DNA of 31,238 nt from a virus: positions 1 to 31,238 of IMG/VR virus record IMGVR_UViG_3300025154_002773, one strand, 5' to 3'. How positions within the stretch are numbered: position 1 is the first letter of the stretch; every line of letters begins with the position of its first letter. This document shows, piece by piece, positions 3,382 through 24,021 of the stretch. Below the pieces are notes generated by a model. It was not told where the DNA came from. It saw only the letters and a list, made by a program, of their open reading frames with translations, and searched no databases. A program made the position numbers and the translations under genes.

Positions 3382-3407
3382 ATTTTTGTTTTTTATAGTT
3401 ATAATGT

Positions 3408-6688: not shown

Positions 6689-7306
6689 TTAAGCTAATTG
6701 TTTATATCTCATTTTTTTAAGCTCTTCATTGGCCGCTAGCATATTTGCCTCGTAAAGACTCTCATCTTCGTCATCAAGAAATAGTTTGGCCACCACGAAA
6801 TATTGAATAAATTTTGGTTTTTTCATTTTTATCGGCGTGAGCTCCTCGCCTGTTACATATCGGGGATGTTTTTCAAGACAAGGCAAAATATATGTACCAG
6901 CGATAGCCGGAAGGGTTCTGATATTATCGCCTTCTTGCCAGAAAACATTTCCAGATGTTTGCCCTTGCTGTTCAAGTTCCACTCCTTCACTTGCATCAAT
7001 CTCACTATAAGTAACGTTTCCAATTAAAAATTGAGCTTTTTCAAAACCCTTTTGTCCGAATTTTTTAATGAAAGATAAAAATGTTTCAGGCAATTCGTCA
7101 GTTCCTGTTCCGCCAAAAATAAAAGTCAATTTTGTTTTTAGTTCATCCCAGCAATATCCTTCGTCAACGCAACTCTCATATTCATCGATTGCATCATCCA
7201 CATAGTCAAGTCTTACTAACATTTCTTCGTTATCAGATCCTTCTGGATAACTTGTATCTTTGGCATATTCTCGATGAATTTTTTTTAATAATTCGCTTAT
7301 TAGCAT
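6689..7306 (-). CDS. Head-tail adaptor / tail tubular protein A-like
   Basis: 205 aa, acidic and mostly helical, starting MLISELLKKIHREYAK. The C-terminal LYEANMLAANEELKKMRY is a helix typical of adaptor proteins that dock between portal and nozzle. Three bases separate its stop from the nozzle start region. The sequence also has a compact beta segment, GNVFWQEGDNIRTLPAI. I recognise no exact family; the assignment follows from size and from the gene order (ejection protein, adaptor, nozzle, fibre). Confidence 0.55.
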   Translation of the reverse strand: MLISELLKKIHREYAKDTSYPEGSDNEEMLVRLDYVDDAIDEYESCVDEGYCWDELKTKLTFIFGGTGTDELPETFLSFIKKFGQKGFEKAQFLIGNVTYSEIDASEGVELEQQGQTSGNVFWQEGDNIRTLPAIAGTYILPCLEKHPRYVTGEELTPIKMKKPKFIQYFVVAKLFLDDEDESLYEANMLAANEELKKMRYKQLA

Positions 7307-7324: not shown

Positions 7325-10300
7325 TTATCTTCGTCTTCTTTTAACTTTTGTAATTCTCCTTTTAGTAAATCTGGTTGGCATTCTATACATTCTCGGCTTG
7401 CTCTTAAATCCGTTAAGTAATGCATTTATTTCCAAAAAATCATTATCTACCAACGGATAGCGATATTTCTCCTCGAGTTTCTTGCCTGTACCTGATCCGC
7501 TACTAGATGAAAGTTTTTCCTTACCGTCTTTCCCAATTTTTACTTTTTTAAGATATGTCCGCTCCTCCTTGCTAATAATTCCTGCATCATATAAATTATC
7601 AATTACACCATTGGAGGCCAGAATTTTTCCACCTATACTTTCCTTTCGATTTTCCCAAATATTATCGAGCACGGTTTGATGATCGGCTTCTTGTGACAAA
7701 GCTGAAACAAAATATTGCGACTTGACATCATCAGTTTGATTAGCGGCAAAATCATATTCGATATCGTCTTTTTCTAATCCCATTTTTTGGAAAATTTGGC
7801 TTTTAACCTCATCGGGAATATTTTTATAAGTATCATCTTCTCCAAATATTTTACGAGCCGTATCAATTTTATCGTTTTCAAAAATATATTTATCCATTCC
7901 TTGTTTAGTATTTTCCTTTGTATATTTATCGAGTCCAAAGGCGTTAATATAAATATCTGAATCATAGTTAGCTTCGCCATTAGCAACCAAATCGATAGCT
8001 ACTGCTCTTCGGGCTAGCTCCTCAGTTTTAAATGTTTTTGTGTCAGCGAGAAGATTGGGGACATAATAATTTCCATCTTCGAGTCCGAAAACTCCACCTC
8101 CCAAATCACCTAGCCCCTTAGTAATCTTGCCTAACTTTACCGCTTTTTTAAGTTCTTCCTTTGTGTTATCTGATGCGCGCGAAGACATTACCTCATCAAA
8201 ATATTTATTTCCTCCAATTTTAAATTTCTCAGTTTGTTCTTTACTAAGCGGAGTTTGCTTATTATCGAAATAATCCTGCATTTCTCCAAAAGCGTTTTTT
8301 CCAAACATTAAACCTCTCAATGTATTTGAGAGTGTTGCTTCTACTGGAGTCATCACTTTGCCAGTTTTGTTTTCAACATATCCATTTAATAAAGATTTCG
8401 CTCCGCTGTAGGTTTTTTCAAGTTGTTTTCCTCCGTAAGGCAATATAACTCCGGTTAACGGATTTTTAACTGCACTAAACATCGGTAATCCGCCAGTCCC
8501 AAATCTAGTAGGATCTCCTTCTCCAAAAAGTTCTTTTCTCGGAATATTCATAAATTTAGATAACGTCGGAAAACTCTCCTCATTCACTCCAAATCCATAC
8601 TCAGGATACATACTCGCAAGAGTTTGTCCTCCTGGAATATTAGAGATAACTTCTCCAGCTATTCTTCCCCCAGCTTTTAAAGATCCTTTAACTTTGCCGT
8701 CTTCACCTTCGAATTCCTGATAAGCATCTACCATTGCATTGATAGGATCAAAAGATACGTCTGAACCCCTAACTTCATTAACTACTCGATTCATCAAATA
8801 ACTAGCCACAGTAAATTCCAACATCTTTTTTGCAACAACTAATTTACTAGGGTCATTTTTAGCGATATCTTTAAGCGCGTACCATTGATTGGCCACTTCC
8901 AATTGAAATGGCGCAACTAGTTGAAAAACTTTTGATTTTTGCGCTATTGGAACCTCTCCTATGCCTCTACCAGCTACCATTTTTCTTGTCCAATCATCCG
9001 CATATTTAATAGGATTAGACACGCCTTCAGATAAAGCTTTTTGATAATGTGCATTCCATATAAATTTAGTTCCAATTTTATCCCCTATTCCAGTCATCCA
9101 AATCGCAAACTTTTTAGTATTAGCTAAAACTCCTTCATTAAATTTGTCATAATCATTAAAATATCTCTCATTAACAAATGCCGATTTCTTAATAGGAGTA
9201 TTTTTTTTAAATATTCCTGCTAAACTATTACCAATAGCCTTGGCTGAGTTTTTAACTCCAGCGCTTGCAAATCCTTGAGGAATATTAAAATATTGAGCTA
9301 AAGAGCTAGAGGCATTTCCAAGCACAGCGTTGGCCTTAAATCTACTATTGGCCCAACTAACTACACTCAGAGCTTTTCTTCCAAATAAATTTTCTTGCAG
9401 TCCTCGATCTAGTGGATTTGTTTTCCCTCCCAAATCTCTCGAAAAGTTTTTTATAAATACCAAAAAATTATTTAACTTATTTTCCGATAATTCTGCGTTA
9501 GCTTTAAAACCCATATTGTTCAAAGCGTTTTCTTTATTTTTAGCAGTTTTGTTTTTTATATAACTTTTTACTTTTTCGTAATTATTTAAAGCGGCCAAGT
9601 CTTTGCCCATCCAATCAGCTTGAGCTTCGGAAATTTTATGATCCGTTAAAATCTTTTTAATTTGAGCGATATCCGTTGAATCAGTAATTTGCTGAATTGG
9701 ATCTAATTTTTGACTTAGCTCTTCTGATAGTCCCCTGCTCTCATGGAAAAACTCCCCAGCACCAAGAGCGCCCTTAGTTTCATCATCTACCCCTTTAAAT
9801 TTAGATATAAAAGGATCGACATGCTTGGCGTAAGCATGATTTTTTATATAATCCAAATATCCCTCCACTGCCCCAAAATCATTAGCGTCACCTTTTCTTT
9901 CCTGGCCAAAAGATAACCATTTTGTTTTTGGATTAGTCACATCAGATGAAGCCGCTAACGCGGGATCTATACTGGCAGAAGTTTCGAACATATTTTTTAG
10001 TCCGGCAATTCCCTCCAAATCTTTACCATGTCGATAATAATCTTTTCTTTCTGGTATTATTTTTGTGCTTTCAGGATATAGTGGATGAGTCGGAAAAAAA
10101 TATTCCCTTACTGCATTTAATTCTTTTAGTAGTTGAGGATATTTATTTTTAAACCATTTATCAGCCTCGATAATATTTCTCCATTGTTTAGGGAATTGCT
10201 GTCGCAATTCATCTTCTCCAAGTTTCCCTTCACCAAATAAAACCACTGCCATATCTTCTTTACTTCCCTTTTTAATACCTAATTTTTTAACAATATTTTC

Positions 10301-12118
10301 TTCTAATTCGTTTAAGAGTATCTTTTGCTCATTGATAAATTCACCCTTTGCAGCATCAAATGGATCCAGTAATTCTTTTTTAATTTTAGGAAATTGGTCA
10401 CCAAAAGTAGCCTCAAAATTTCGATAAACATCTCTAAATCCTGTCATCGGAGCCGAGATGTCTTTTAATTTTGCTGGGTTTACTCCCTCCAAATAATTGG
10501 TATCCAATTCGTGTTTTTTCTTATAATAATTTTTTAAAGTTAGATAAGGAACCTCTCTTTTTAAAATTAAATCCATTCTATCAAAATCCATCTTTTGGAT
10601 TTCATTTTTTGGATAACCCAAATTTCCAAGCTTAATAATTCGCTTAGCTTGATCTACACCTATTCTATCAATATCTTTTTTTACATATCCGATAGCTCTC
10701 AATTCCTTCGGATAATCAATTATTTCTCTAATTGCATCAACTCTCTCTCCTTTTACTTTGTGGGCCCTCTCTTGGAACTTATTAAATCCGCCCTCTGGTG
10801 GTGCTAGCGGAGTTTCCTTTTTTGGTTTTACCACAAATTCATCCCCCTTAAATGGAGATTCATTTTTTATTGATTTTTTACCATTAACAAATTCCTCAAT
10901 ACTTGGAACTTTATTTTGTTTTGTTTCTGTTTTTTTATTTACAAATTCTTCAATCGATGGAAATACCGACTGCTTGTTTTGCTCAACCTCCAAAAATGCC
11001 TTCTGCGGTGCTTTAACTTTTTGAGGTGGTACAAAACCTTTTTCTGCTTTATCAAGCCTCAAGCGTTGATTTTGTTGTTGCCTAGCTATTGTTTCTTGAG
11101 CTTTTTTATTTTTTAAAGCGATCTTATTATTAAAATCCATTACCTTAGATGAAACAATTCTTGGCTTAGTCGCATTCATATCCTGAATATTTAATCCTGG
11201 CCGCACGTTTAAAACTTTCCCAAGAACACTTTCAGGTTTAAATGGTGTTTTTATAGTTTGAATTATTTTTCTCTCTGTTCCAGGCACTGGGACCATCTGA
11301 GGCTTGCCATGAATCATTATTCCGTAATTCGGTCTATAATCTACTTTATCAACAACTTTTTTTGTATATGGATTTTTAAAATTCATTATATCAGTAGTCG
11401 TCTTTGCTATTTCCTTTTTAACACCCTCTTTTGTGCTATGAGCAACTTTACCTCCACCAGCTATTGTTCCGCCCAATACTCCTCCAGCTACTGTTCCCAT
11501 GATAGAACCCTGGACACCTCCTTTTAATGCATTCTCCCCTTGTTCTTTTAAATTTTTTCCCTCTTGCGCACCGCTTAATATTCCTGACGCTCCACCGTAA
11601 ATAAAACCTTCTTTAGCTCCTCTTTTTGCTCCGGTCTTAATTACATCCATCACTCCTGTTTTTGAGGCTTTCTTAAATCCATCAGTGGCTATCTTTTTTA
11701 TTGTTCCTCCTCCAGCAACAGTTGAGCCAATATCTACTCCGATATTTGCAGCCTCTGCTCCTCTCCTAACTAAATATGAAGGAGTTGCTTTTGTTTTCCC
11801 ATAATCCTTAAATGTTCCAGCAACTGTTCTTGAAGGGATATTCATTATTTGCTGTGGAATCTCTGCGGCGAATCTCCCAACTGGATTATTTACTTTTTTT
11901 GCAAAATCAAATTTAGGAATATTTTCTGCTTTTTGAGAAAAACTTCTTAATCCTTGATCTGCTTTTTTCATCCAGCCGGGAGTATTATTGGGATTGTTTA
12001 AATAATTTCTGGCTTCATTAGCCATTCTTCCAAGATTAGAAGAAGTCTTTTGAGCTACTGGCTCAAAAGTATCATTTAATTTCTTTTTTGTTTTTCTATA
12101 GAAATTTAATAATGACAT
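7325..12118 (-). CDS. Giant internal virion / ejection protein, polyvalent-like
   Basis: 1597 aa, the largest gene. Residues about 100-230 are rich in Gly/Ala zipper segments (GSTVAGGGTI, GASGILSGAQ, GTVAGGVLGGTIAGGG), which suggest membrane insertion. Residues about 340-450 are a Lys/Gln/Pro-rich linker with two copies of PSIEEFVN. The long helical core (500-1300) contains a WANSRFKANAVLGNASS to FQLVAPFQLEVANQWYAL stretch resembling LPD38-type domains of phage 'large polyvalent proteins' (from memory). The C-terminus is very basic (KRRITKVKRRRR). It is probably packaged in the head and ejected with DNA to build a channel, like T7 gp16. No protease or transglycosylase motif was seen. Confidence 0.65.
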   Translation of the reverse strand: MSLLNFYRKTKKKLNDTFEPVAQKTSSNLGRMANEARNYLNNPNNTPGWMKKADQGLRSFSQKAENIPKFDFAKKVNNPVGRFAAEIPQQIMNIPSRTVAGTFKDYGKTKATPSYLVRRGAEAANIGVDIGSTVAGGGTIKKIATDGFKKASKTGVMDVIKTGAKRGAKEGFIYGGASGILSGAQEGKNLKEQGENALKGGVQGSIMGTVAGGVLGGTIAGGGKVAHSTKEGVKKEIAKTTTDIMNFKNPYTKKVVDKVDYRPNYGIMIHGKPQMVPVPGTERKIIQTIKTPFKPESVLGKVLNVRPGLNIQDMNATKPRIVSSKVMDFNNKIALKNKKAQETIARQQQNQRLRLDKAEKGFVPPQKVKAPQKAFLEVEQNKQSVFPSIEEFVNKKTETKQNKVPSIEEFVNGKKSIKNESPFKGDEFVVKPKKETPLAPPEGGFNKFQERAHKVKGERVDAIREIIDYPKELRAIGYVKKDIDRIGVDQAKRIIKLGNLGYPKNEIQKMDFDRMDLILKREVPYLTLKNYYKKKHELDTNYLEGVNPAKLKDISAPMTGFRDVYRNFEATFGDQFPKIKKELLDPFDAAKGEFINEQKILLNELEENIVKKLGIKKGSKEDMAVVLFGEGKLGEDELRQQFPKQWRNIIEADKWFKNKYPQLLKELNAVREYFFPTHPLYPESTKIIPERKDYYRHGKDLEGIAGLKNMFETSASIDPALAASSDVTNPKTKWLSFGQERKGDANDFGAVEGYLDYIKNHAYAKHVDPFISKFKGVDDETKGALGAGEFFHESRGLSEELSQKLDPIQQITDSTDIAQIKKILTDHKISEAQADWMGKDLAALNNYEKVKSYIKNKTAKNKENALNNMGFKANAELSENKLNNFLVFIKNFSRDLGGKTNPLDRGLQENLFGRKALSVVSWANSRFKANAVLGNASSSLAQYFNIPQGFASAGVKNSAKAIGNSLAGIFKKNTPIKKSAFVNERYFNDYDKFNEGVLANTKKFAIWMTGIGDKIGTKFIWNAHYQKALSEGVSNPIKYADDWTRKMVAGRGIGEVPIAQKSKVFQLVAPFQLEVANQWYALKDIAKNDPSKLVVAKKMLEFTVASYLMNRVVNEVRGSDVSFDPINAMVDAYQEFEGEDGKVKGSLKAGGRIAGEVISNIPGGQTLASMYPEYGFGVNEESFPTLSKFMNIPRKELFGEGDPTRFGTGGLPMFSAVKNPLTGVILPYGGKQLEKTYSGAKSLLNGYVENKTGKVMTPVEATLSNTLRGLMFGKNAFGEMQDYFDNKQTPLSKEQTEKFKIGGNKYFDEVMSSRASDNTKEELKKAVKLGKITKGLGDLGGGVFGLEDGNYYVPNLLADTKTFKTEELARRAVAIDLVANGEANYDSDIYINAFGLDKYTKENTKQGMDKYIFENDKIDTARKIFGEDDTYKNIPDEVKSQIFQKMGLEKDDIEYDFAANQTDDVKSQYFVSALSQEADHQTVLDNIWENRKESIGGKILASNGVIDNLYDAGIISKEERTYLKKVKIGKDGKEKLSSSSGSGTGKKLEEKYRYPLVDNDFLEINALLNGFKSKPRMYRMPTRFTKRRITKVKRRRR
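10787..10858 (-). repeat. Palindromic-repeat-like insertion inside the giant virion gene
   Basis: This part of the gene encodes SPFKGDEF ... TPLAPPEGG (residues 421-444). Such SPFKGD/PLAPPEGG peptides are typical read-through products of REP/MITE-like GC-rich palindromes that can sit in frame inside genes. The DNA has purine-rich TAAGGGGGAT at one end and CCGC...GCGG arms at the other, more G/C-rich than the flanks. It sits in the low-complexity linker, where an insertion would be tolerated. Confidence 0.4.
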
Positions 12119-12139: not shown

Positions 12140-13351
12140 TTAAACAGTCTCTTCTTCATCTTCATAAATAGGCTCTCCAGTAATCGGATCATATCGCTTA
12201 ATAACTCTCTTTTTATTTGTATTTTCAGGGTTATACCAATCTTCAGCATTTTCCGGATTTTCTAAATCAATCTCCTCTGAAAAATTAGGTGTTTCAAGAG
12301 AGGCTGGAGAATCTATATCTACAGAAGCCACTTCTAACTCATCCGCTGCTCCGCCGTATTCTGTATACTTAGCAGCTAATTCTGTTCTAAAGTTTTTAGC
12401 AGAGATGTTAATATTAGAAAGAGTAGCCATAAGCTTTTGCAAATTTTTATCAGATTCAGCTTTAACATCTTCTTTTTTCCAATCACCTCTTTTATTTTTT
12501 AATCTTTTTAAAGCCTCTTCTTGCTCTTTGAATGTTTCCACAGCTTCCTTAGTAGCGTCTTCTTGCCATTGATAGGCCTGATCTCTTTTTGTTTTATATT
12601 CTTCACCTGCATGTCTCAGGTTTTGATTCTGTTCACTTATCTGATCTCCATAATTGGTTAAAACTTTTGACCTTTCTCTCCCAGCGCTTCCAGCAATAGC
12701 CTTGGCCGCCATTCTGCTAGCACTGCCACCGCTTGCGCCTTTAATTCCAAGCATGACATTGGTGTTATCAACGCTTTTTCTTGTATCTCCAGCTAAATCA
12801 TCAAGTGATTCTTTTTGATTTCTCTCAATTAATGTTTTATTGCCAGCTATAGCGCTTTCGGTTCTATTCTTGTAGTTATCTAAAGCACTGATATATTTAT
12901 CCTTAATTTTTCCAAGATTAGAAATATATTTTTTGGATGTTCCTAAAGATTTTTCAGTAGCCCCGATTTCATCATTAGCGTCATCCCAACCCTTACCAAT
13001 AGCACTTATTATGCTACTGTTTCCACCCGAAGATCCTCCTTTAGATTTGTCATAAATACTCCCGGGAGCATTTCCTCCGCTCTTGAGCTGTGCTGTTTCC
13101 TCATCCGTATTTGCGTTTAATGAAGTTGTTTTTGAATTTCCGCCTGAATTATTGGATGGTTCTTTTCCTTCATGCCACTTATTATCATCCCCCCAATATC
13201 CATCTCCCTCACTGGCTAATGCTATTGGCTTCAACAGAGAGTAAGCTGTCCCAACCACTGGGGCCTTTTTTAATACCGTCTTTCCAACCGCAGATCCAAT
13301 TTTTATAGATCCAGCTTTTATTGCCGAAGCAATTGCTCCTAGATTTGCCAT
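12140..13351 (-). CDS. Internal virion protein (putative ejection protein)
   Basis: 403 aa. The N-terminus (1-50) alternates Ala/Gly/Ile/Lys, as membrane-active peptides do. A Gly/Ser/Asn-rich linker spans about 65-115. Long charged coiled-coil helices (about 125-320) include an Ala/Gly-rich stretch (ASGGSASRMAAKAIAGSAGR). The C-terminus is acidic and ends YEDEEETV. Directly downstream lies the giant ejection protein, so together they probably form the ejectosome. It is the first late gene after the inverted moron, and the moron's promoter begins just upstream of its start. No known domain is recognised. Confidence 0.55.
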   Translation of the reverse strand: MANLGAIASAIKAGSIKIGSAVGKTVLKKAPVVGTAYSLLKPIALASEGDGYWGDDNKWHEGKEPSNNSGGNSKTTSLNANTDEETAQLKSGGNAPGSIYDKSKGGSSGGNSSIISAIGKGWDDANDEIGATEKSLGTSKKYISNLGKIKDKYISALDNYKNRTESAIAGNKTLIERNQKESLDDLAGDTRKSVDNTNVMLGIKGASGGSASRMAAKAIAGSAGRERSKVLTNYGDQISEQNQNLRHAGEEYKTKRDQAYQWQEDATKEAVETFKEQEEALKRLKNKRGDWKKEDVKAESDKNLQKLMATLSNINISAKNFRTELAAKYTEYGGAADELEVASVDIDSPASLETPNFSEEIDLENPENAEDWYNPENTNKKRVIKRYDPITGEPIYEDEEETV

Positions 13352-13367
13352 ATTTTTTTATTTTTTC

Positions 13368-13399
13368 TTGACATAGTTGCATTTTTCTGCAATTATAGT
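13368..13399 (+). promoter_or_regulatory. Moron promoter with internal dyad
   Basis: A perfect -35 TTGACA (13368-13373). The -10 may be AATTAT at 13391-13396 (17-base spacer) or TATAGT at 13394-13399 (20-base spacer). Within the spacer, TTGCA (13377-13381) and TGCAA (13388-13392) form an inverted repeat overlapping the -10, a likely repressor site. It drives the two plus-strand genes that follow. Confidence 0.65.
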
Positions 13400-13422
13400 A
13401 AGATTTAATTAATTATTTACTT

Positions 13423-13656
13423 ATGAAAAATTTATTTACTAAATTTATTATTTATTGGCTAATCCCTATCGTAGGTGTTTTAGCTATTAGTTTTTATTTG
13501 TCAGATATTTCTTTTATTGATTTCATTAAGAACAATCTTTTACAGAAAGAGATTCCAGGGATGGCAATAGGAATGATAATTGTTCTTCCATTTATAATCT
13601 TTTATGAATTAATATCCATAGCGATTAAAAATTTATTTAAACTTTTAAAAAAATAA
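13423..13656 (+). CDS. Moron gene 1: small membrane protein
   Basis: 77 aa with two predicted spans: FIIYWLIPIVGVLAISFYL (about 8-26) and IAIGMIIVLPFIIFYELI-like (about 47-65). Short basic ends suggest both termini on the cytoplasmic side. It is encoded against the late operon and has its own promoter and downstream terminators, the definition of a phage moron. Morons are often expressed from the prophage for superinfection exclusion or lysogenic conversion, but no family is recognised here. Confidence 0.75.
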   Translation: MKNLFTKFIIYWLIPIVGVLAISFYLSDISFIDFIKNNLLQKEIPGMAIGMIIVLPFIIFYELISIAIKNLFKLLKK

Positions 13657-13661
13657 AATTT

Positions 13662-14000
13662 ATGAACAACGACAACTATAATCAACCAGTAGTTCACGAA
13701 ACTATTTACGTTGAGCCAAAGAAACCTTTCTTTGAAAATCTTTATGAAAAACATGAGGGTTATATTTCTGCTCTTTATGGAATTTCATTTTTTCTCTCTG
13801 GTATATATGCATTTATTAGGTGGTTAAAAGAATTGTTCGCGACTGCTCATGACGATAACTTTATCGGATTTATTTTTGTTTTTCTTTTCCAAAGTTTCAT
13901 AATGGCAATAAACACCATACTTGGTGGAATAATGTTTTTCATCATTCTTCTTCTAATATCAGTAATTCCATATCTAATTTATAGAGGATTAACAAAATAA
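13662..14000 (+). CDS. Moron gene 2: small membrane protein
   Basis: 112 aa, starting five bases after moron gene 1, so co-transcribed and possibly coupled. A soluble N-terminus of about 32 residues (PVVHETIYVEPKKPFFENLY) precedes three hydrophobic segments (about 34-52, 65-82 and 86-108). The C-terminal GGIMFFIILLLISVIPYLIY is a strong span. The pair may form one membrane complex. Function is unknown; the immunity or exclusion role is inference. Confidence 0.75.
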   Translation: MNNDNYNQPVVHETIYVEPKKPFFENLYEKHEGYISALYGISFFLSGIYAFIRWLKELFATAHDDNFIGFIFVFLFQSFIMAINTILGGIMFFIILLLISVIPYLIYRGLTK

Positions 14001-14035
14001 TTTTTTAAATGTACTTTCCGTTTCCCTTCCCCTAG

Positions 14036-14057
14036 AAGCCTCGCTATGCGGGGTTTT
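14036..14057 (+). terminator. Moron terminator 1
   Basis: CCTCGC-TAT-GCGGGG (14039-14053) with AA/TT extension and a short T-run, 35 bases after the second moron gene. No T-run on the minus strand, so it acts on the plus strand only. Confidence 0.65.
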
Positions 14058-14075
14058 ATAGTAAAAGACAAAACT

Positions 14076-14231
14076 TTATAAATTCCTAATTGCCCATATG
14101 ATACCTGCCAAAAATAATAAATCCGTCAGCGTATATGCAGAATATTTTATGATATCTTTCCATTCTGATTTTTTTGCATAATTCATATTCATTGCTTTGA
14201 CAAACTTAAAAATGTTTGTTATTCTATTCAT
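14076..14231 (-). CDS. Possible 51-aa membrane peptide
   Basis: ORF starting MNRITNIFKFVKAMNMNYAK, with a hydrophobic C-terminal stretch (TLTDLLFLAGIIWAI). It would be part of the late leftward transcript between the 79-aa gene and the internal virion proteins. The moron terminators surround it. Length and a good ATG support it; no Shine-Dalgarno and no family. It could also be a third, oppositely oriented, part of the inserted moron. Confidence 0.4.
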   Translation of the reverse strand: MNRITNIFKFVKAMNMNYAKKSEWKDIIKYSAYTLTDLLFLAGIIWAIRNL

Positions 14232-14243
14232 AGATGTTTGTTA

Positions 14244-14289
14244 AACCGTTTGAGCTGTCCGTCGAAAGAAAGCTTGGGCGGTTTTTTTT
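14244..14289 (+). terminator. Moron terminator 2
   Basis: An imperfect, G-U-rich stem of about 11 pairs (CCGTTTGAGCT with AGCTTGGGCGG), then eight Ts. It is a second stop for plus-strand read-through. Confidence 0.6.
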
Positions 14290-14313
14290 ATTTTATTATT
14301 TCTCTCCCCCTAC

Positions 14314-14337
14314 AAGCTCCCCCAAAAGGGAGCTTTT
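14314..14337 (+). terminator. Moron terminator 3
   Basis: AAGCTCCC and GGGAGCTT pair around CCAAAA and are followed by Ts. Three consecutive plus-strand terminators shield the head genes from antisense transcription. Confidence 0.6.
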
Positions 14338-14351
14338 TAGCGAAAGATAAA

Positions 14352-14591
14352 CTATTTTTTCTTAGTTTCTTTTTTTGTTTCAGTTTTAACTGGTTTTTCA
14401 GTTTTAACTTCTACATCTTCATTTAAAACTTTTCCAAAAACTTCTTCCTCAACAGCACTAAGGTAGTTTCTTCTTGCTCTCAAGATTTTTTTATCTTGAT
14501 TAGTTAATTCATGAGGAGTTTTTTTAAGTACGTCCTCGATTAGCTTTTTGTCGCCATGAGACAATGTGTCTCTACTAATTTTTTCACTCAT
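14352..14591 (-). CDS. Small basic protein after the capsid gene
   Basis: 79 aa, highly charged, Lys/Glu-rich, with a C-terminal Lys/Thr tail (KPVKTETKKETKKK). Probably two helices followed by a disordered tail. Its place between the major capsid protein and the ejection proteins would suit a head-completion or minor head protein, but no family is recognised. A palindrome TTAATAATTATTAA lies 11 bases before the start. Confidence 0.55.
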   Translation of the reverse strand: MSEKISRDTLSHGDKKLIEDVLKKTPHELTNQDKKILRARRNYLSAVEEEVFGKVLNEDVEVKTEKPVKTETKKETKKK

Positions 14592-14686
14592 TTTGTTAGC
14601 TTTTAATAATTATTAATAGCCCTATGGCCATAATTTCCCCACCAAGCCAATTGGTAGGGATATATGACTATAAAATTGTAAAGATA

Positions 14687-15835
14687 CTAAGCGAGATTGA
14701 ATTTTGCATAAAATGCAACTCCGGCCTTTCTTCTTTCGTCAGCCACTTTTTCTCCATGACCAAATAAACCTTTGATTAAATCAGAATGTCCATTTGGATT
14801 TTGCTCAGCTTTGATTGTTGAAATATTTTCAATATATCCAAAAGCTCCGGTAATAAAAGATTTATGACCACCAACACACATAAAACCATCAGTATTATCA
14901 CCGGTGAACCATTCATCAGGTAAGAAATACAAATCAAATCCAGATGCTTTAGCTACCTTACCTTTAGCCACAGTCTCATCAAAAACTTCCTTAATACTTG
15001 GATTAAGTTCAGTTGCTTTCAATAAAACTGGTTTAGCGGCCAATTCGGGCAAAGCTAACCAACGCTTTCCATCATTAGGAGCTCCTTTTAGCATTCCAGA
15101 TAGAACATCAAGATTATATTTGAAATTGCTTTGAGTAATTGCAAGACAAGTATTTGCTTGAATTTCATAAGAACTTCCCCCTGCAATAGCTCCACCTGTA
15201 TAGGCGCTATCAGTATCGTCACTATCGTCTTCAATTACTATATGAGTTGTATCTGTAAATGTTTTAACTCTAAACCATTTACTATGACCGTCAGCTCTAA
15301 ATGGTTTTCCAACCATTGAAGCTGCGAAAGTCGTTCCAACTCCAACCACTGCTCCAGTTGTGACTGTTATGGTAACCGTTCCTGTGACATATGATGTCCC
15401 TAACCAATTTCCAGCAGCTGCATCAGCATAAAATGCTAATATAGCCTGGTCCATTTCTTCATATAAAGCTTGTCCAGCTTGATTGATTATTTCACTATCT
15501 GGATCTTCAACTGCGCTAGCAAAAGCAGCCACAGATGGAATCTCATCCGCTATCTCAAGGAATGTGCCGACAATCAATCTAGAAATAACTTCCGTTACCT
15601 TGGTGTAAGTTATTGTGCTTACTCCATCAGTAGATTTCCAACCACCACCAGTAAGAGTCGTAACAACAAACTCTTTAAATTTTTTATCTACTTTCTTTTT
15701 CATTTTAGGATCAGAAACATTCTGAGCCTCAAAATTATCATTTACCACATCCACATACATCGAACGCTGAAAGAACTTTTGAAGTGCTTTGGTTTGATAT
15801 TTTATGGAAGTAGTTTTTGTTCCCAAATTATCCAT
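14687..15835 (-). CDS. Major capsid protein with inserted beta domain
   Basis: 382 aa. Assigned as coat protein because it follows a scaffold-like gene, has the right size and contains HK97/P22-coat-like elements: an N-terminal helical arm, a long helix about 106-140 (DSEIINQAGQALYEEMDQAI) and a C-terminal FGYIENISTI / HGEKVADERRKAGVAFYAKF segment. Residues about 149-226 look like a separate beta sandwich (TGTVTITVTTGAVVGVGTTF, then WFRVKTF, then HIVIEDD), a domain type also found in phage tail and decoration proteins. It may project from the shell like the I-domain of P22 coat. Confident as a capsid gene; the insert fold is an inference. Confidence 0.82.
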   Translation of the reverse strand: MDNLGTKTTSIKYQTKALQKFFQRSMYVDVVNDNFEAQNVSDPKMKKKVDKKFKEFVVTTLTGGGWKSTDGVSTITYTKVTEVISRLIVGTFLEIADEIPSVAAFASAVEDPDSEIINQAGQALYEEMDQAILAFYADAAAGNWLGTSYVTGTVTITVTTGAVVGVGTTFAASMVGKPFRADGHSKWFRVKTFTDTTHIVIEDDSDDTDSAYTGGAIAGGSSYEIQANTCLAITQSNFKYNLDVLSGMLKGAPNDGKRWLALPELAAKPVLLKATELNPSIKEVFDETVAKGKVAKASGFDLYFLPDEWFTGDNTDGFMCVGGHKSFITGAFGYIENISTIKAEQNPNGHSDLIKGLFGHGEKVADERRKAGVAFYAKFNLA

Positions 15836-15891
15836 ACAATTACTTTTTTAAAAAATATTAATTAAATTTTTAGCTTAAGCAATCTAATTTT

Positions 15892-16851
15892 TTATTTTAA
15901 ATGCTTAAACTTTCCCTCGGCGAGCATACGCTTATATAATTGAGGATCCTCTTCGCTTATTCTTTCCACATCTTCCCAAGTTAATTCTCCAGATTTGTTT
16001 AGGTTTTCACCTGAGCCGGATATTACCCCGGACAAAGCCTTATTTTTAACTTCTTTTTCTTTGGCGATTTTGTCTTGCTTAACTTTTTCTCTAGCGTCAA
16101 TTACTGTTTTATAAGCTTTATTAATGGACATTCCTCCATTAATTAAAGTTTCAACAGCCTCAGCTAGAATAGGGTCGTATTTACCATCCTTACTGTTTTC
16201 ATTAAGCTCAGGATGATTTCCCATAAACTCCACAAAATCTGTCATTTCCTTTTTCTGGTTTTCCTCTTGAATTATTTCTTGGCGTATTTCCTCACGCTCA
16301 GCATCTTTGATTGCCTCAATATCCTCGGCCTCTAATGCTCTACTTGGCTTCAGCCCTCTCATTTTTCTTGCTATCGCCAAATATTGCTCCAAAGCCTCTA
16401 TTTTGTCGTCCTTAGAATGATTTTTTAAATCATTCATTAGTTCTTCTTTAGTTGGAATGTTTTCATCCCCCCTTAAAGTAAGGACTTGGATATATTTATC
16501 AGCTAGACGCTTATCAAGACGAGGAGTCATTGATTGAACCTCATGATTTTGAATATCTTGATTCTCATCATTTTGATTTTCATCAACTTCCTTTTTCTCT
16601 TGATTCTCTTCTTCAGCTTTTTCAGCTTCAGGTTTCTTTTCTTCTTCGGTTTCAGATTCTTCTTTTGGTTTTCCAAAAGCGGTTTTAATTTCATCCTCAC
16701 CGACGATGTCCATAATTCTAGGATCTAAGTCCTTAATTTCTTCCGCCTCTTTTTCGTTGTTAGGCGACTCAGTTGGCGTCACTGACGAATTACTTTCTAT
16801 GGAAGCATTTGCGCTATCTTCCGGAGCGATGTTTTTTTCTTCTATATCCAT
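15892..16851 (-). CDS. Scaffolding protein
   Basis: 319 aa from the ATG at 16851 (a GTG at 16863 is less likely). Very acidic, Glu/Lys/Asn-rich, with a disordered N-terminal 120 residues and helical segments to the C-terminus, which ends with a basic YKRMLAEGKFKHLK. This composition and the position immediately before the major capsid gene are typical of phage scaffolds, whose basic C-terminal helix binds coat protein. No protease motif is visible. A GCACC/GGTGC hairpin (16860-16876) lies just upstream of the start. Confidence 0.75.
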   Translation of the reverse strand: MDIEEKNIAPEDSANASIESNSSVTPTESPNNEKEAEEIKDLDPRIMDIVGEDEIKTAFGKPKEESETEEEKKPEAEKAEEENQEKKEVDENQNDENQDIQNHEVQSMTPRLDKRLADKYIQVLTLRGDENIPTKEELMNDLKNHSKDDKIEALEQYLAIARKMRGLKPSRALEAEDIEAIKDAEREEIRQEIIQEENQKKEMTDFVEFMGNHPELNENSKDGKYDPILAEAVETLINGGMSINKAYKTVIDAREKVKQDKIAKEKEVKNKALSGVISGSGENLNKSGELTWEDVERISEEDPQLYKRMLAEGKFKHLK

Positions 16852-16859
16852 ATTCTTTC

Positions 16860-16932
16860 GCACCTATACGCGGTGCGCTACGATTTTAAAAATTACCAGG
16901 TTCTCTTACGAGAAGTTCCCGAGAAGTAGCGC
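16860..16932 (-). promoter_or_regulatory. Hairpins in the scaffold gene leader
   Basis: GCACC (16860-16864) pairs with GGTGC (16872-16876) nine bases before the ATG. GCGCTAC (16875-16881) can instead pair with GTAGCGC (16926-16932) over a loop that includes a TTCTC/GAGAA hairpin. The two share bases 16875-16876, so they may be alternatives. No Shine-Dalgarno is present. Confidence 0.4.
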
Positions 16933-16935
16933 AAA

Positions 16936-17283
16936 TTATTGTGCTACCGGCTTGGGCTCTCCTTGTTTTCTCGTTTCACTTTCTCTGCGTACTTTTTTAA
17001 TTAATTCAACTTCATTCACAAACTCTCTAAGCATTTTTAATGCCTTAGCATTAGCGAATGTATTTGCCAAAATCAGAATATGATTGGCATTATCTGATAA
17101 ATTAGTTGTATCTACCGGCTCAAGAAGTTCGCATATAGTTTTATTGGCTTTTTTAACCATAATCTTCCAACCTTCACTTTCAGACATCGTATAAAGAGCC
17201 TCTTCTTCAGCTACATGATCAGTCTTTTCATTTTCAGCTTTTGTGACTTCTGCTTTAACTTTTTTTATTTCTTCTTTATTCAT
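16936..17283 (-). CDS. Unknown late protein between portal and scaffold
   Basis: 115 aa, mostly helical and charged, with a central part SEGWKIMVKKANKTICELLEPVDT and a helix IANTFANAKALKMLREFVNEVE-like near the C-terminus. Encoded between the HNH gene and the scaffold. It resembles small helical proteins found near phage portal/scaffold genes, but I know no function. The gap to the scaffold start contains the alternative hairpins at 16860-16932. Confidence 0.65.
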   Translation of the reverse strand: MNKEEIKKVKAEVTKAENEKTDHVAEEEALYTMSESEGWKIMVKKANKTICELLEPVDTTNLSDNANHILILANTFANAKALKMLREFVNEVELIKKVRRESETRKQGEPKPVAQ

Positions 17284-17287
17284 TTTT

Positions 17288-17746
17288 TTATCTTAAATTA
17301 TTATCTTTATCGTATTTCGTGTGGCACTTAGCACATAGTTCAATAAAATCATTTGTATTTCTTCTATATTTATGATCTTTATTCGCCCAGTGCATTTCTC
17401 TTCCTCTGCCCTCTTTTCCACAAACTGAGCATTTTTTTGCTTTTCCCAATTTTCTTCGTACCCAATAATGTAAACCACTATAAGAGACAAATTCACCCTT
17501 CCAATTGTGGCATTTCTCTCCATTATGAATTGGAGGAAATATTTTATTTTCTTTATTAAATTTACTTTGTCGCTCTTTCCATTTATGGGTATGTTTTTTG
17601 CCGAAACATGGATTAAGCTCCCCCTTATTGATACCCCGAGCTTTCATTGTTTCACTTATTTTTTTTCTTATTTCATCGGACACTACGCACCCACTTCTGC
17701 TTGGAGGAGTTGGCTTAATTCCACTCTTTCTGATTCCTTTTGGCAT
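17288..17746 (-). CDS. HNH homing endonuclease with NUMOD3 motif
   Basis: 152 aa. The N-terminal half has a NUMOD3-type DNA-binding motif (ISETMKARGINKGELNPCFG and KKHTHKW). The C-terminal half is an HNH nuclease with a zinc site: CSVCGK, then MHWANKDHKYRR, then LCAKCHTKY. Such genes are mobile and insert between phage genes without a structural role. It sits between portal and a small late gene. A 60-base element with interleaved inverted repeats (17758-17814) lies between its start and the portal stop, probably the translation control typical of phage homing endonucleases or a trace of insertion. Confidence 0.9.
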   Translation of the reverse strand: MPKGIRKSGIKPTPPSRSGCVVSDEIRKKISETMKARGINKGELNPCFGKKHTHKWKERQSKFNKENKIFPPIHNGEKCHNWKGEFVSYSGLHYWVRRKLGKAKKCSVCGKEGRGREMHWANKDHKYRRNTNDFIELCAKCHTKYDKDNNLR

Positions 17747-17757
17747 ATTTTATTTTT

Positions 17758-17814
17758 CCTCTTATTCCCTGCCCAACCTTACGAGTAAAGGCAGGAGATA
17801 AGAGGCGTAAGGTT
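17758..17814. repeat. Interleaved inverted repeats (pseudoknot-like) before the HNH gene
   Basis: Order A-B-A'-B'. CCTCTTATTCCCTGCC (17758-17773) pairs with 17790-17805 at 14 of 16 positions. AACCTTACG (17775-17783) pairs perfectly with CGTAAGGTT (17806-17814). The two stems are interleaved, so they form either a pseudoknot or mutually exclusive hairpins. In the minus-strand RNA the element ends 11 bases before the HNH start codon. Confidence 0.65.
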
Positions 17815-17822
17815 AGTTTTTT

Positions 17823-19544
17823 TTAATAAACATCATTATTTACTATCTGTTCATTCTCTTGATTTTCAACTATTGTCCCTCCTTCATCTCCAACCCCAGC
17901 GATTGCATTTGGATCGTCAGCGCTAACAATGATTTTATTCCAATCGGTTATTCCATTCTCAATTGCTAATCTTTTAACCGCTTCACCCCAGTTAATCTTT
18001 TTTCCGCTACTCGCAATGTCTTGTTGGATTGCATCATTTTTAGCAATCATATTTAGAAGTCCCATCATCTTTTCAGCGGCATCACTTCGCTTAGCAGTAC
18101 TTCCAGAATCAATTTTGTATTTAATAGATAAATCAGATAATAAGTCTCTTGTAATAATTCCATTTTCAAAAACATTTAAATCACTATGTGGATAGACAAC
18201 TTTAATATTTTCTAAAGCTTCTTGTATTCCTGGAATTTTTACTTTATCCATGCCTCTTTTAGAAGCTACTGCCATCATCATATTGGCCACATTTTCCAAG
18301 AATCTTTCTTGCATATATCTATCCCAGCTATCTCTGGCACCCTCTCTATCTCCTTGCATCTTCAGGGCCTCTGGAGTCTTGCCAAAGCCAACATCCACAC
18401 TCTTAGGGATAGACGTATCAGAAGCAGCGCCTAAGCTCATTAGATTAGCTTTCATCATGTTGTAAGTACTTTGAAAAGTAGCCAGTCCTTGAGGAGAATT
18501 TTCAAGAATCCTAACCTTATCAACATTGCCTTCTTTGGCAAACCAAAATTTGTTGTCGACATGAACACTAGACATAACCATTAATTCAGGATCAATAATG
18601 GCAGTTGGGTCTATGCTCTTATCTAATGAAGCAAAATATTTTCTGCACAACGCATCGATTGCTTTTTGTGGCATCTCACCTCTTTCCATATCTGATAAGC
18701 CCCAATATCTATCCAAAACTGGAATGGTCAATTTTTCCACCAAAGGAATTCCAGGAAAATAATCTTTTTCATTAAGAATTTCTTTTTTAGAATTAGGTTC
18801 AAAAATTATCCAGTCTCCATTTCGATTAAAGTAATTTCTTAAAACTATAGTGTCCTTGTCTTGTATTCGATTCTTTTCTTCTGAGGTTAAAGACGATTGG
18901 TCAACGGATGAAGGATTTATTTCATTAATTACAGCCTTGTTCCATACTCCAGGATTATCTTTGCATCTATCCTCTAGCCACTTTTTGCTTACAAAAACAT
19001 CCACAAAACACCAATCCATATCGCTAATGGAATATTTTCCTGGTTGAGGATAAAATCTTCTAGGATGAACCAAAACCATATCCGGACCGGTATACAATTT
19101 ACCAACCATATAGTCGATGAAAACCATCATTGTTCCGTAAATTTTCGAGTAAAAATTAACCTGTCTTGATTTTGTGAAAAAATCACCACCGATATTTGCA
19201 TTGGGTAAAATATATTCATGGTAAACAAGATTTGCTGCTATAACTTTAGATATGTCAGTGTCTCGATAACTAGAAAATCTTCCGGTAGCCATCTGAGCCA
19301 TTATTCGACAACTGCTATCAAGAATTAAAGTTGCGAGTTCTCCTGTGGAATAAAATGATTCAACATTTTTCTTTTCTTTTTCCTTATCGTCGATATTTAC
19401 ATATCTCCCATAAAACAACTGCTCTCTATCAGTCCAAGCAAAACCAGAGGACATAACATCCTTTTTGACTCTTTCGGCCTCAGTGAATTCTGCTTGAATA
19501 TCACTAGACACTTCAGTTATTTGGATTGTTTCATTTTCTTCCAT
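17823..19544 (-). CDS. Portal protein
   Basis: 573 aa from the ATG at 19544. An ATG four codons upstream (19556) is the alternative; the downstream one has the usual AAAAATATG context. The size and the order (terminase, portal, scaffold, capsid) fit a podovirus-type portal, the dodecameric vertex through which DNA is packaged and ejected. Seen features: an N-terminal TDREQLFYGRYVN region; a beta/helix core, IYGTMMVFIDYMVG and VHPRRFYPQPGKYSISD; the long helix region ALKMQGDREGARDSWDRYMQ near the crown; and an Asn/Glu-rich C-terminal tail. The assignment rests on context and overall pattern. Confidence 0.8.
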   Translation of the reverse strand: MEENETIQITEVSSDIQAEFTEAERVKKDVMSSGFAWTDREQLFYGRYVNIDDKEKEKKNVESFYSTGELATLILDSSCRIMAQMATGRFSSYRDTDISKVIAANLVYHEYILPNANIGGDFFTKSRQVNFYSKIYGTMMVFIDYMVGKLYTGPDMVLVHPRRFYPQPGKYSISDMDWCFVDVFVSKKWLEDRCKDNPGVWNKAVINEINPSSVDQSSLTSEEKNRIQDKDTIVLRNYFNRNGDWIIFEPNSKKEILNEKDYFPGIPLVEKLTIPVLDRYWGLSDMERGEMPQKAIDALCRKYFASLDKSIDPTAIIDPELMVMSSVHVDNKFWFAKEGNVDKVRILENSPQGLATFQSTYNMMKANLMSLGAASDTSIPKSVDVGFGKTPEALKMQGDREGARDSWDRYMQERFLENVANMMMAVASKRGMDKVKIPGIQEALENIKVVYPHSDLNVFENGIITRDLLSDLSIKYKIDSGSTAKRSDAAEKMMGLLNMIAKNDAIQQDIASSGKKINWGEAVKRLAIENGITDWNKIIVSADDPNAIAGVGDEGGTIVENQENEQIVNNDVY

Positions 19545-19560
19545 ATTTTTATTCATTTAA

Positions 19561-19598
19561 GCGAGTGAAACTCGCTTTGGTTTGTTAGTAAACTAACA
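19561..19598 (-). promoter_or_regulatory. Two hairpins abutting the portal start
   Basis: GCGAGT-GAA-ACTCGC (19561-19575) and TGTTAGT-AA-ACTAACA (about 19583-19598) are perfect small hairpins in the last bases of the leader. No Shine-Dalgarno is visible between them and the start codon. Confidence 0.45.
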
Positions 19599-19623
19599 AT
19601 TCCCTTTCGCTAACTTAGATAAA

Positions 19624-19653
19624 TAAAAAAAGCCCCTGTTTTCACAGGAGCTT
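19624..19653 (-). terminator. Leader terminator T2
   Basis: Minus-strand stem CCTGT/ACAGG, extended by AAGC/GCTT, followed by seven Ts. It is the second of two intrinsic terminators in the late leader, upstream of the portal gene. Confidence 0.75.
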
Positions 19654-19660
19654 ATATAAC

Positions 19661-19682
19661 AAAAAACAACCCTTCTGGGTTG
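19661..19682 (-). terminator. Leader terminator T1
   Basis: Minus-strand hairpin CAACCC-AGAA-GGGTTG followed by six Ts. It would stop the late transcript about 170 bases after its start unless antiterminated. Confidence 0.78.
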
Positions 19683-19807
19683 CATAGACTCTATTCAATT
19701 TTATTGGATACAAAAACTCCTATGCTCGGTTTAACTGCTCACCACGAGGGCGCAAAACCGAAAAAATAGAAGTCTCTTGTCATGCGTATTCGAGTTGTCT
19801 CTCTCGA
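19682..19807 (-). ncRNA. Structured leader / candidate small RNA of the late operon
   Basis: In the minus-strand RNA, GCAU (19782-19785) and AUGC (19682-19685) close a domain. AGACUUCUAUU (19765-19775) pairs with AAUAGAGUCU (19686-19695) with one bulge. An overlapping alternative pairs ACUUCUA (19767-19773) with UAGGAGU (19716-19722). Within lies a CGGUUU/AAACCG hairpin (19727-19760) with G/C-rich arms, and TCGAG/CTCGA forms an upstream hairpin (19790-19807). Two terminators follow at once. It may be a free sRNA of about 170 bases, or a leader that switches between termination and read-through. I do not recognise a known family. Confidence 0.55.
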
Positions 19808-19839
19808 CCGTTTATGATCTAACGAATTTCTACAATTTC

Positions 19840-19867
19840 ATAATATCACAATAAAATTATTTGTCAA
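19840..19867 (-). promoter_or_regulatory. Candidate late promoter
   Basis: Minus-strand TTGACA (19862-19867), 16 bases, TATTAT (19840-19845); start near 19833. It overlaps the last codons of the upstream 92-aa gene and precedes a ~280-base leader before portal, so it would drive the whole head, tail and lysis block. Confidence 0.65.
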
Positions 19868-20135
19868 TACGTTTTCTGAAATTTTCTAACAAAAAACCAC
19901 CAACAGCACCGACGAGTACCTTCAATATTGTTTCGGGCATCTCATTGGGGTTATGTTTTATAACGATAAATACTAAAATTATAATCAATATAATTACTCC
20001 CCACATTATTATAATCATAGCTAAATTAAAATGATTTTTAAAACGTTCCGTTCTATTGTGGTCGTTATTCTTTTCGTCCAATTTCAGTTCCTCATCATTT
20101 TTAAGTTGTTCGCCTTTTGCAATTTTCCTAGTCAT
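19857..20135 (-). CDS. Small membrane protein in the cargo segment
   Basis: 92 aa. Charged N-terminus with KGEQLKNDEELKLDEKNND, one long hydrophobic segment (about 36-58: LAMIIIMWGVIILIIILVFIVI), then a second, shorter one (ETILKVLVGAVGGFLLENF, about 69-87). No lipobox. It follows the ImmA-like gene by four bases, so the two are likely co-expressed. A membrane partner of a metalloprotease is possible, but nothing in its sequence shows a function. Confidence 0.65.
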   Translation of the reverse strand: MTRKIAKGEQLKNDEELKLDEKNNDHNRTERFKNHFNLAMIIIMWGVIILIIILVFIVIKHNPNEMPETILKVLVGAVGGFLLENFRKRIDK

Positions 20136-20139
20136 AGAA

Positions 20140-20643
20140 CTACATAATTATCTGATCAAGTAATTTACTACCCCGTATTGCAGCAGCAGCAGGAGAAACA
20201 TTAAAAATATTTGCGACCTCCTCAATCGACTTTGACTTATTCCAAATATATATAAATTTATCTCTCGGCATCAACAGCTTAGCAGCATTTTTATTTGCAA
20301 TAATTTCCATCATAACTCTCTCCTCCTCTTTTTCGGCTTCTTCTTTTCTCATCACTGGTTGCCTATTCTGAGTTACATAGTCATCATTGATAATTGATTT
20401 ATGAAGAAGAAAATGAATAATCTCATGAGCTATCGTAAATCTCTTTCTCGTAGATGAATGGTTAGCATTCACATAAATAACATACTGATTCCCTTCTTTT
20501 CTTATTAATCCGGACTCACTGTCATCCAAGCTTTCTGTTTCAAAAACTTTGATATCTAGTTTATCGGCTATTTCTAAAATAGGAACAGGAACACTATCTT
20601 TGTATTCATCAAAGATATCGTTGAGTGTTATTTCTTTTTCCAT
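20140..20643 (-). CDS. ImmA/IrrE-type metallopeptidase
   Basis: 167 aa. It carries the zincin motif TIAHEIIHFLLHK (His73, Glu74, His77) and a downstream MEIIANKNAAKLLMP (Glu113 as probable third ligand), the exact layout of the ImmA/IrrE (COG2856) family. ImmA of ICEBs1 cleaves the ImmR repressor to induce excision, and IrrE cleaves DdrO. Here no HTH repressor lies next to it, so it may act on a repressor elsewhere or on a host protein. It sits between terminase and portal, an unusual place for an immunity gene, in a block that looks like cargo. The C-terminal helices may bind its target. Confidence 0.85.
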   Translation of the reverse strand: MEKEITLNDIFDEYKDSVPVPILEIADKLDIKVFETESLDDSESGLIRKEGNQYVIYVNANHSSTRKRFTIAHEIIHFLLHKSIINDDYVTQNRQPVMRKEEAEKEEERVMMEIIANKNAAKLLMPRDKFIYIWNKSKSIEEVANIFNVSPAAAAIRGSKLLDQIIM

Positions 20644-20707
20644 TTTTTTTAAAGTTATTTCTTAACATCTAAATTGTATCATAATATCAATATTTAATAC
20701 AATGAAA

Positions 20708-20914
20708 TTATAAAATGTTATTATTTAAAAATCTCACAGGTTTATTTTTATAAACATACAAAGGCTTTAAATTTAGTCTGCCAATAAAAACTACTTTAAC
20801 AACCAATAAATCGCAACCATCGCCCCAGCGATTAGCTTCCAGGGTGTCATAAATTTCCTGGACGATTCTATCTTTTTCTTTTTCATCTTCTATTTCTATA
20901 TTTGTTTTTGACAT
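20708..20914 (-). CDS. Unknown 68-aa protein
   Basis: Starts MSKTNIEIEDEKEKDRIV; acidic helical N-terminus, then a beta-like VVKVVFIGRLNLKPLYVYKN segment. It is third in the cargo block, separated from the ImmA-like gene by a 64-base AT-rich gap. No known family or motif is recognised. Confidence 0.5.
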   Translation of the reverse strand: MSKTNIEIEDEKEKDRIVQEIYDTLEANRWGDGCDLLVVKVVFIGRLNLKPLYVYKNKPVRFLNNNIL

Positions 20915-20918
20915 AACC

Positions 20919-21182
20919 CTATTTTAAGTTAAATAAACTTTTTACATATCTCCAAAAATCAATAAACTTTATAGCTACCAAGATTTTAAGATTTCTAATA
21001 AGATTTTGGCGCTCTTCTCTCCTTTGTTTTTTTCTTGCTATCTTTGGATTAGCTTCCTCCATTATTCTTTTGACCTCTCTTATGAGGCTCCCAAAATCAT
21101 CAGTACTTAGGGCTGTGATTATGTTTTTATCCCTAAACATTTCGATTACATTTCTTCTCGCATCAAATTTCAACTTGATCAT
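20919..21182 (-). CDS. Unknown 87-aa basic protein
   Basis: Basic, helical, with a KKQRREERQNLIRNLK stretch (about 51-66) and a hydrophobic/aromatic C-terminus (IKFIDFWRYVKSLF). It begins in a 4-base ATGA overlap with the upstream gene, so the two are coupled. No family is recognised. The basic patch could bind nucleic acid or membrane; both are guesses. Confidence 0.55.
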   Translation of the reverse strand: MIKLKFDARRNVIEMFRDKNIITALSTDDFGSLIREVKRIMEEANPKIARKKQRREERQNLIRNLKILVAIKFIDFWRYVKSLFNLK

Positions 21183-21451
21183 ATTGTTTTTTTATTATTT
21201 ATTAAATTAAATTCTTTTAAATATTCCTTAATTTCACTTAGGCTATTTGAGTTGAAAATATATTCCTTGCTATTAGTTGGGTTTTCATATCTGCACTTTA
21301 AATATGGAGATTCTCCAATGTTATAAGTAACAATCGCGAATTCCCAATTTTTAACGTTATATCCGTCAATATCTACTTTTGGCAAAACCAACGGTATATC
21401 ATTAAAAAAATCACTTATATCAATTTCATTTAGAAGTTTGTTTATATTCAT
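21179..21451 (-). CDS. Unknown 90-aa protein after the terminase
   Basis: Acidic N-terminal helix (NKLLNEIDISDFFND), then beta-like segments (NWEFAIVTYNIGESPYLKCRY) and a C-terminal helix. Starts four bases after the terminase stop, so it is read as part of the same transcript. No known family or motif. Confidence 0.55.
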   Translation of the reverse strand: MNINKLLNEIDISDFFNDIPLVLPKVDIDGYNVKNWEFAIVTYNIGESPYLKCRYENPTNSKEYIFNSNSLSEIKEYLKEFNLINNKKTI

Positions 21452-21455
21452 AAAT

Positions 21456-23604: not shown

Positions 23605-23608
23605 CGAC

Positions 23609-24015: not shown

Positions 24016-24021
24016 ATAAGT

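Follow-up and report, generated by a model that had tools for sequence, protein, structure and literature searches.

A candidate antisense moron with exchangeable membrane-protein cargo in temperate phages of Moranbacteria

The phage and its inverted gene pair

What are two small membrane-protein genes doing on the plus strand of a phage whose recognisable genes, those for the integrase, capsid, portal-like protein, terminase, holin and M23 peptidase, all lie on the minus strand? The window, as we call the whole stretch of DNA analysed, is a complete IMG/VR record of 31,238 nucleotides (Table 1), in which the terminase large subunit and the portal-like protein were recognised by PHROG matches. 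When genome contigs were searched with the capsid protein, DNVQ01000031.1, a contig of a Candidatus Moraniibacteriota MAG, proved to encode one that is 100% identical. Positions 4690-25835 of the window are 100% identical over 21,146 bp to this contig (locus L004), and positions 1-4443 and 12443-30393 match further stretches of it. Host-type genes, which we take to be iscS, a NUDIX gene, iscU and a GNAT gene, lie on the integrase side of the prophage. Based on the integrase and on this location in a bacterial contig with host-type genes, the window is a temperate phage of an ultra-small Patescibacterium (Moranbacteria), probably seen in the prophage state.

Several other parts of the window also differ from their counterparts or carry recognisable domains. 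At 30393-30659, close to the prophage end, the window has 266 bases and the MAG contig 53; the cause is either the assembly or genuine variation. The region 19857-20643, with genes for an M78 (IrrE-like) peptidase and a small membrane protein, may be a second variable slot, as the related phage L002 has about 360 bp in place of about 870 bp in the window. An NUMOD3/HNH-like ORF at 17288-17746 may encode a homing endonuclease; the corresponding stretch of L002 is shorter by about 520 bp. A WDGH-domain protein is encoded at 28242-28673 (PF25311, E 3.1e-30). No Rfam family was found in the window.

Table 1. Features of the window and of its inverted cassette.
Feature	Position	Strand	Basis or remark
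Window, whole IMG/VR record IMGVR_UViG_3300025154_002773	1-31,238		
Tyrosine integrase	1-870	-	phrog_1, E 1.2e-33
M23 peptidase	2015-2731	-	profile match
Holin	2923-3381	-	PF05105; together with M23 peptidase
Late gene on promoter side of slot, 403 aa	12140-13351	-	family in 6/6 phages
Promoter region	13368-13404	+	sequence; conservation with L002
TTGACA box	13368-13373	+	
Dyad TTGCATTTTTCTGCAA, TTGCA-N6-TGCAA	13377-13392	+	
Alternative -10, AATTAT	13391-13396	+	implied by 17-nt spacer
Likely -10, TAAGAT	13399-13404	+	alignment with relatives
Gene 1, P0001, 77 aa, two-helix membrane protein	13423-13656	+	ORF call, helix prediction
Gene 2, P0002, 112 aa, two-helix membrane protein	13662-14000	+	ORF call, helix prediction, AlphaFold
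T1, cassette terminator	14039-14057	+	hairpin and T tail; alignment with relatives
Hydrophobic ORF between T1 and T3, 51 aa	14076-14231	-	coding status uncertain
Separate short-RNA unit	14197-14291	+	TTGACA-17-TATTCT with TG, then T2 and T tract
T2 hairpin	at 14244	+	hairpin and T tract
T3 hairpin, adjoining stop codon of convergent late gene	14315-14338	+	hairpin and T tail
Small late gene on terminator side of slot, 79 aa	14352-14591	-	homologs in relatives
Major capsid protein	14687-15835	-	phrog_267, E 2e-5

The sequence-only reading had described two small membrane proteins that run against the late operon and belong to no known family, and both points hold. P0001 and P0002 each have two predicted hydrophobic membrane helices, and neither matches a family over the cut-off in Pfam, PHROG, NCBIfam or PADLOC, be it one pointing to exclusion or any other; sub-cut-off matches, for instance DUF6524 (E 0.092) and phrog_33207 (E 0.072), were rejected as grounds for naming a family. 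The AlphaFold model of P0002, made from a single sequence, consists of two long helices (pLDDT 79, pTM 0.39). P0001 has a homolog in L002 (positions 6970-7194, minus strand; 41% identity, E 1e-9), the only match in viral contigs, and gave a single match at E 8 in phage records. Among 379 genomes of the phylum, P0001 matched its own genome and ten other stretches (E 5e-5 to 0.01), six of which contain in-frame stops, and the best of these ten, L015, showed no phage context on reading by eye. For P0002, 128 genomes of the order yielded its own genome and three weak matches (E 0.005-0.009), none of 47 pattern stretches in viral contigs was confirmed as a relative, and phage records contained none. 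The cassette has a GC content of 26.3% versus 33.3% for the window and lies in the 4th percentile of equal-length segments; in L002, L003 and L031, the three relatives for which it was computed, the cassette is likewise poorer in GC than the locus average.

One slot, changing cargo

Six phages were compared: the window, L002, L003, L031, L047 and L050. L002 and L003 are IMG/VR contigs with capsids 83% and 77% identical to that of the window, L031 and L050 (genome G490, same order) were found through the 403-aa late gene, and L047 through the giant protein encoded at 7325-12118 of the window. Each phage was counted once, L028, L029, L044 and L045 standing for L002, L030 and L046 for L003, and L001, L004, L005, L007 and others of G001:C10 for the window. 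The distant capsid match G370 with its loci L012/L013 (no DNA match to the window) was left out of the counts, as was the capsid match G358 (E 6.5e-4).

All six phages carry an inverted two-gene unit that adjoins a member of the 403-aa gene family and diverges from it. On the terminator side, the flank is the 79-aa gene family in four of them (the window, L002, L003 and L047); L031 has other late genes there and its homolog of the 79-aa gene elsewhere, and the L050 contig ends before the capsid-side flank, leaving only the divergent 403-aa neighbour in view. An empty slot, with the flanking genes adjacent, was found in none of the six. This argues against a recent insertion, and the slot looks like an ancestral, occupied site in which cargo has been exchanged.

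Stricter definitions of a moron demand a relative with an empty site. The definition in PMC2629481 does not. Contents differ at one operon site in all six phages (synteny and all-against-all BLASTP), the unit has a factor-independent terminator of its own, represented by T1 and by homologous hairpins of L002, L003 and L047, and its base composition departs from that of the window as given above. With variable contents, its own promoter region, polar terminators and a temperate phage around it, the inverted pair is well described as a self-contained cassette of the moron type, as had been supposed.

Gene 1 belongs to the P0001 family of proteins with two transmembrane helices in the window and L002, and encodes a signal peptidase I-like (S26) protein in L003, L031, L047 and L050. 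The S26-like proteins, 135-140 aa long, each have a single N-terminal helix and match one another at E 3.1e-8 or better (BLASTP). PF10502 matches them over the Pfam cut-off in L047 (E 3.4e-13), L031 (E 2.9e-11) and L050 (41.1 bits summed) and below it in L003 (E 0.0017; 18.8 versus 22.9 bits). They contain boxes of the SM[EL]P and GDN..S.DSR.YG type, SM-x-P and GDN being kept in all four; the Lys is kept in three, and L003 has His instead and retains the Ser. Such Ser and Lys/His boxes of an S26 domain are present in gene 1 of all four relatives and in neither gene of the window, and P0001 and P0002 showed neither an S26 domain nor similarity to the S26 proteins of the relatives. An AlphaFold model of an S26-like protein (pLDDT 76) had S. 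aureus SpsB (4wvj) as its best Foldseek match (probability 0.99, E 0.027), and nothing was found at E <0.001. Gene 1 of these four phages is predicted to encode a miniature signal peptidase I-like protein. It shares the Ser/Lys-type boxes and the N-terminal helix with type I signal peptidases but differs from them in its small size and, in L003, in the His for Lys. The best NCBIfam match of the L003 protein (positions 9915-10331) is an archaeal-type signal peptidase (E 8.9e-6, below cut-off).

The gene 2 products are more diverse, and no pair of them matched at E 0.05 in an all-against-all BLASTP of the six phages. The L047 product begins with a stretch like a signal peptide and ends in a C-terminal helix, that of L002 has a single N-terminal helix, and those of L003 and L050 have several helices; for L031 the helix predictor found none. 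Gene 2 products are hence usually predicted to be membrane-anchored or exported. At its N terminus, the L047 product (positions 7546-8253) also has a Cys-rich domain that resembles proteins of phrog_6000 and NCBIfam PRK10040 (E 2.7e-6 and 3.9e-6, respectively), and a weak Ig-like stretch lies between this domain and the C-terminal helix.

Promoter region and terminators

A TTGACA promoter containing a TTGCA/TGCAA dyad had been proposed for the cassette. The letters are in place and the leader is kept in L002, but the promoter score is at chance level (reached by 124 of 1000 shuffles), and the region holds 8 promoter-like sites versus 12.8 expected. The promoter call is rescued by comparison: 56 of 66 leader columns are identical between the window and L002 (84.8%, versus 57.4% for gene 1, 60.6% for the flanking late gene and 77.9% for the capsid gene), and TTGAC occurs exactly once in the 5' region of all six cassettes. 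Good sigma-70-type promoters precede the cassettes of L047 (TTGACA-16-TATTAT, matched by 7 of 1000 shuffles), L050 (TTGACA-17-TATACT, 12 of 1000) and L003 (TTGACT-17-TATATT, 36 of 1000). The promoters of L002 and L031 are no better than chance (567 and 347 of 1000) and, together with that of the window, count against the cassette reading. As the window promoter does not rise above chance and none of the three hairpins behind the genes was called in a strict terminator scan, the statistical case rests on the comparison with relatives.

The -10 box first assigned, AATTAT, is not conserved in L002 and is doubtful; the likelier box is TAAGAT, which aligns with the -10 boxes of L003, L047 and L050. 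In this alignment, the dyad is extra spacer sequence present in the window and L002, and TAAGAT may pair at 16 nt with the dyad's left arm, TTGCAT. A MerR-like promoter spacing is another possibility (TTGACA-20-TATAGT in the window versus 21 nt in L002); none of the 31 window ORFs searched with Pfam gave a MerR match. The arms of the dyad are six bases long in L002, and its conservation makes regulation through it plausible. The exact dyad occurs once in the 31 kb, compared with 0.07 expected from 200 shuffles for a pattern chosen after the dyad had been seen, and at one mismatch there is one site versus 1.86 expected. Elsewhere in the 1.2-Mb host genome it is found in one place only, inside a terminator-like hairpin, so no regulon is visible, and there was no support for the dyad as an operator, whether for a host regulon or for the main phage repressor. 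A relaxed pattern combining the dyad with TAAGAT matched only L002 in viral contigs.

Three successive terminators had been placed behind the genes. All three hairpins fold, and the next eight bases after each include 4 to 7 T, but T2 apparently belongs to a separate unit. T1 agrees in position and in its flanking letters with the cassette terminators of L002, L003 and L047, and T3 is similar to T1, so that the two resemble duplicated cassette ends. T2 is probably the end of a separate RNA of about 60 nt, a predicted plus-strand transcript antisense to the region upstream of the 51-aa ORF. The window contains a single promoter-plus-hairpin unit of this kind, and 2 of 30 shuffles contained one each, by criteria set after the fact. 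The extra unit at 14060-14337, comprising the short RNA and the 51-aa ORF, is absent from L002 and L003. In type I toxin-antitoxin pairs, a short RNA is likewise antisense to the upstream region of a small hydrophobic ORF; a search of 127 further genomes of the order gave no credible homolog for the 51-aa ORF of the window.

The hairpins are mostly polar, and in six of seven the T count is higher on the side of cassette transcription than on that of late transcription: 5 versus 3 for T1, 7 versus 1 for T2, 4 versus 2 for T3, 4 versus 1 in L002, 5 versus 4 in L003 and 5 versus 3 in L047. The strong hairpin of L031 is reversed, with 4 T in the cassette direction versus 7 in the late direction. 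Late transcripts may therefore stop there, which argues against a uniform rule of polarity. At 6465-6560 of L031, a promoter-like TTGCCC-17-TATATT precedes a strong hairpin with its T tract in the late direction, possibly forming another short RNA beside the slot.

Proposed mechanism and its alternatives

We consider it fairly probable that the cassette is an antisense moron, that is, a noncontiguous operon, which in this temperate Moranbacteria phage would be on in the lysogen and silenced late, with products that change the envelope. Expression timing, transcriptional interference and function are inferred here as follows. In the lysogen, a promoter against or inside the leader of the divergent late gene would drive the two membrane proteins, and polar terminators would halt cassette transcription short of the small late gene and the capsid gene, leaving late transcripts free to pass. 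After induction, antisense late transcription through the cassette would turn it off. In L047, the -35 box of the cassette and the start codon of the late gene that diverges from it overlap, and since no room for a late-gene promoter is visible there, late transcripts probably run antisense through the cassette. The slot itself is conserved and apparently old, with its cargo swapped among relatives and products that are predicted to be membrane-anchored or exported in nearly all.

This membrane or exported cargo, together with a signal peptidase-like enzyme in four of the six phages, points to the cell envelope as the target. The products would most probably alter the lysogen envelope, for example to exclude other phages, and exclusion or a related envelope effect is our best guess. 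SieA of P22 and gp15 of HK97 are membrane superinfection-exclusion proteins of temperate phages. The window pair resembles them in being small membrane proteins of a temperate phage, and no sequence relation was detected. A bolder and tentative version is that the slot is dedicated to the envelope, with a mini signal peptidase and an exported partner alternating with peptidase-free pairs like that of the window; it would give the lysogen another surface or set of secreted proteins, keep competing phages out, and be turned off by the late transcription behind virion production.

A different kind of envelope conversion is less probable than the reading above: export or processing functions in the slot, a small signal peptidase with an exported partner in relatives and a membrane pair in their place in the window, could change how the epibiont secretes, builds pili or attaches. 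Four of the six phages have an S26-like gene 1, and the gene 2 product of L047 combines a start like a signal peptide with a C-terminal helix; both host genomes examined carry a chromosomal S26 protein of their own, among them G490, whose prophage also brings one. Against this stands the window pair itself, with neither S26 motif nor similarity to S26 proteins.

A regulatory element is unlikely. According to this explanation, the late operon or the choice between lysis and lysogeny would be under the control of the plus-strand RNA or, in relatives, of the membrane-anchored S24/S26-like proteins. Cassette transcription would head toward the late genes, and the S26-like proteins match CI-like repressor peptidases (phrog_4, E 3.4e-9; phrog_6201, E 8.8e-8). 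However, S26 models outscore S24 models (3.4e-13 versus 1.4e-6), and these matches probably reflect the related S24 domain; moreover, no DNA-binding part was matched, the terminators would end the transcript short of the capsid gene, and gene content varies among the relatives.

Slightly less likely still is a lysis-related pair, such as holin and antiholin or a device for lysis timing, which would suit small two-helix proteins and a weak holin/antiholin match of the L003 gene 2 product (phrog_14607, E 0.048). The window encodes a holin and an M23 peptidase elsewhere, on the minus strand, and the cassette is oriented against late transcription, both of which make a lysis role unlikely, and in relatives S26 proteins replace the P0001 family. 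It is very improbable that the two ORFs are spurious, or in decay, in a gap rich in AT: no relatives of P0002 were found in the searches above, GC is low and the promoter score weak, but P0001 is conserved as a protein in L002, position and two-gene layout are kept in all six phages, and the first codon position has the highest GC in either ORF, a pattern shared with the phage genes for capsid and terminase and with the flanking genes.

The reading as an antisense moron has partial precedents. P22-like phages have a variable moron region in the late operon, where an antisense RNA and an exclusion gene are also found; it resembles the window slot as a variable, independently expressed group in the late operon, expression being predicted for the window (PMC2629481). 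STMMW_20121 of ST64B is independently transcribed from its own promoter and antisense to lytic genes, and the window cassette, with its predicted promoter, is likewise antisense to lytic genes (PMC7067206). In the S. aureus phage 80alpha, the ith/tha noncontiguous operon is under reciprocal control by nested antisense transcription; there too, antisense coding with its own promoter lies inside an operon and could make states mutually exclusive, but a lytic-phase inhibitor sits inside a lysogenic operon, whereas in the window a predicted lysogenic unit sits inside a lytic operon (PMC11087260). Orientation and polar terminators of the cassettes fit such an operon, and the L031 hairpin does not. 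The window cassette differs from known morons in lacking an empty-site relative, in its cargo families and in its Patescibacterial host. In the literature on phage signal peptidases, morons and superinfection exclusion, no such cassette was found by title or start of abstract, and a conserved antisense slot of Moranbacteria phages that swaps a miniature signal peptidase module for membrane pairs seems to be new.

Most of what is known of lysogeny in Patescibacteria comes from metagenomes; we know of no tested accessory functions of Patescibacteria phages, and literature searches showed none by title or start of abstract. A conserved slot with exchangeable membrane cargo provides concrete candidates for genes by which a prophage could change an ultra-small epibiont's envelope, and the antisense layout could tie the cassette genes to lysogeny with no repressor dedicated to them.
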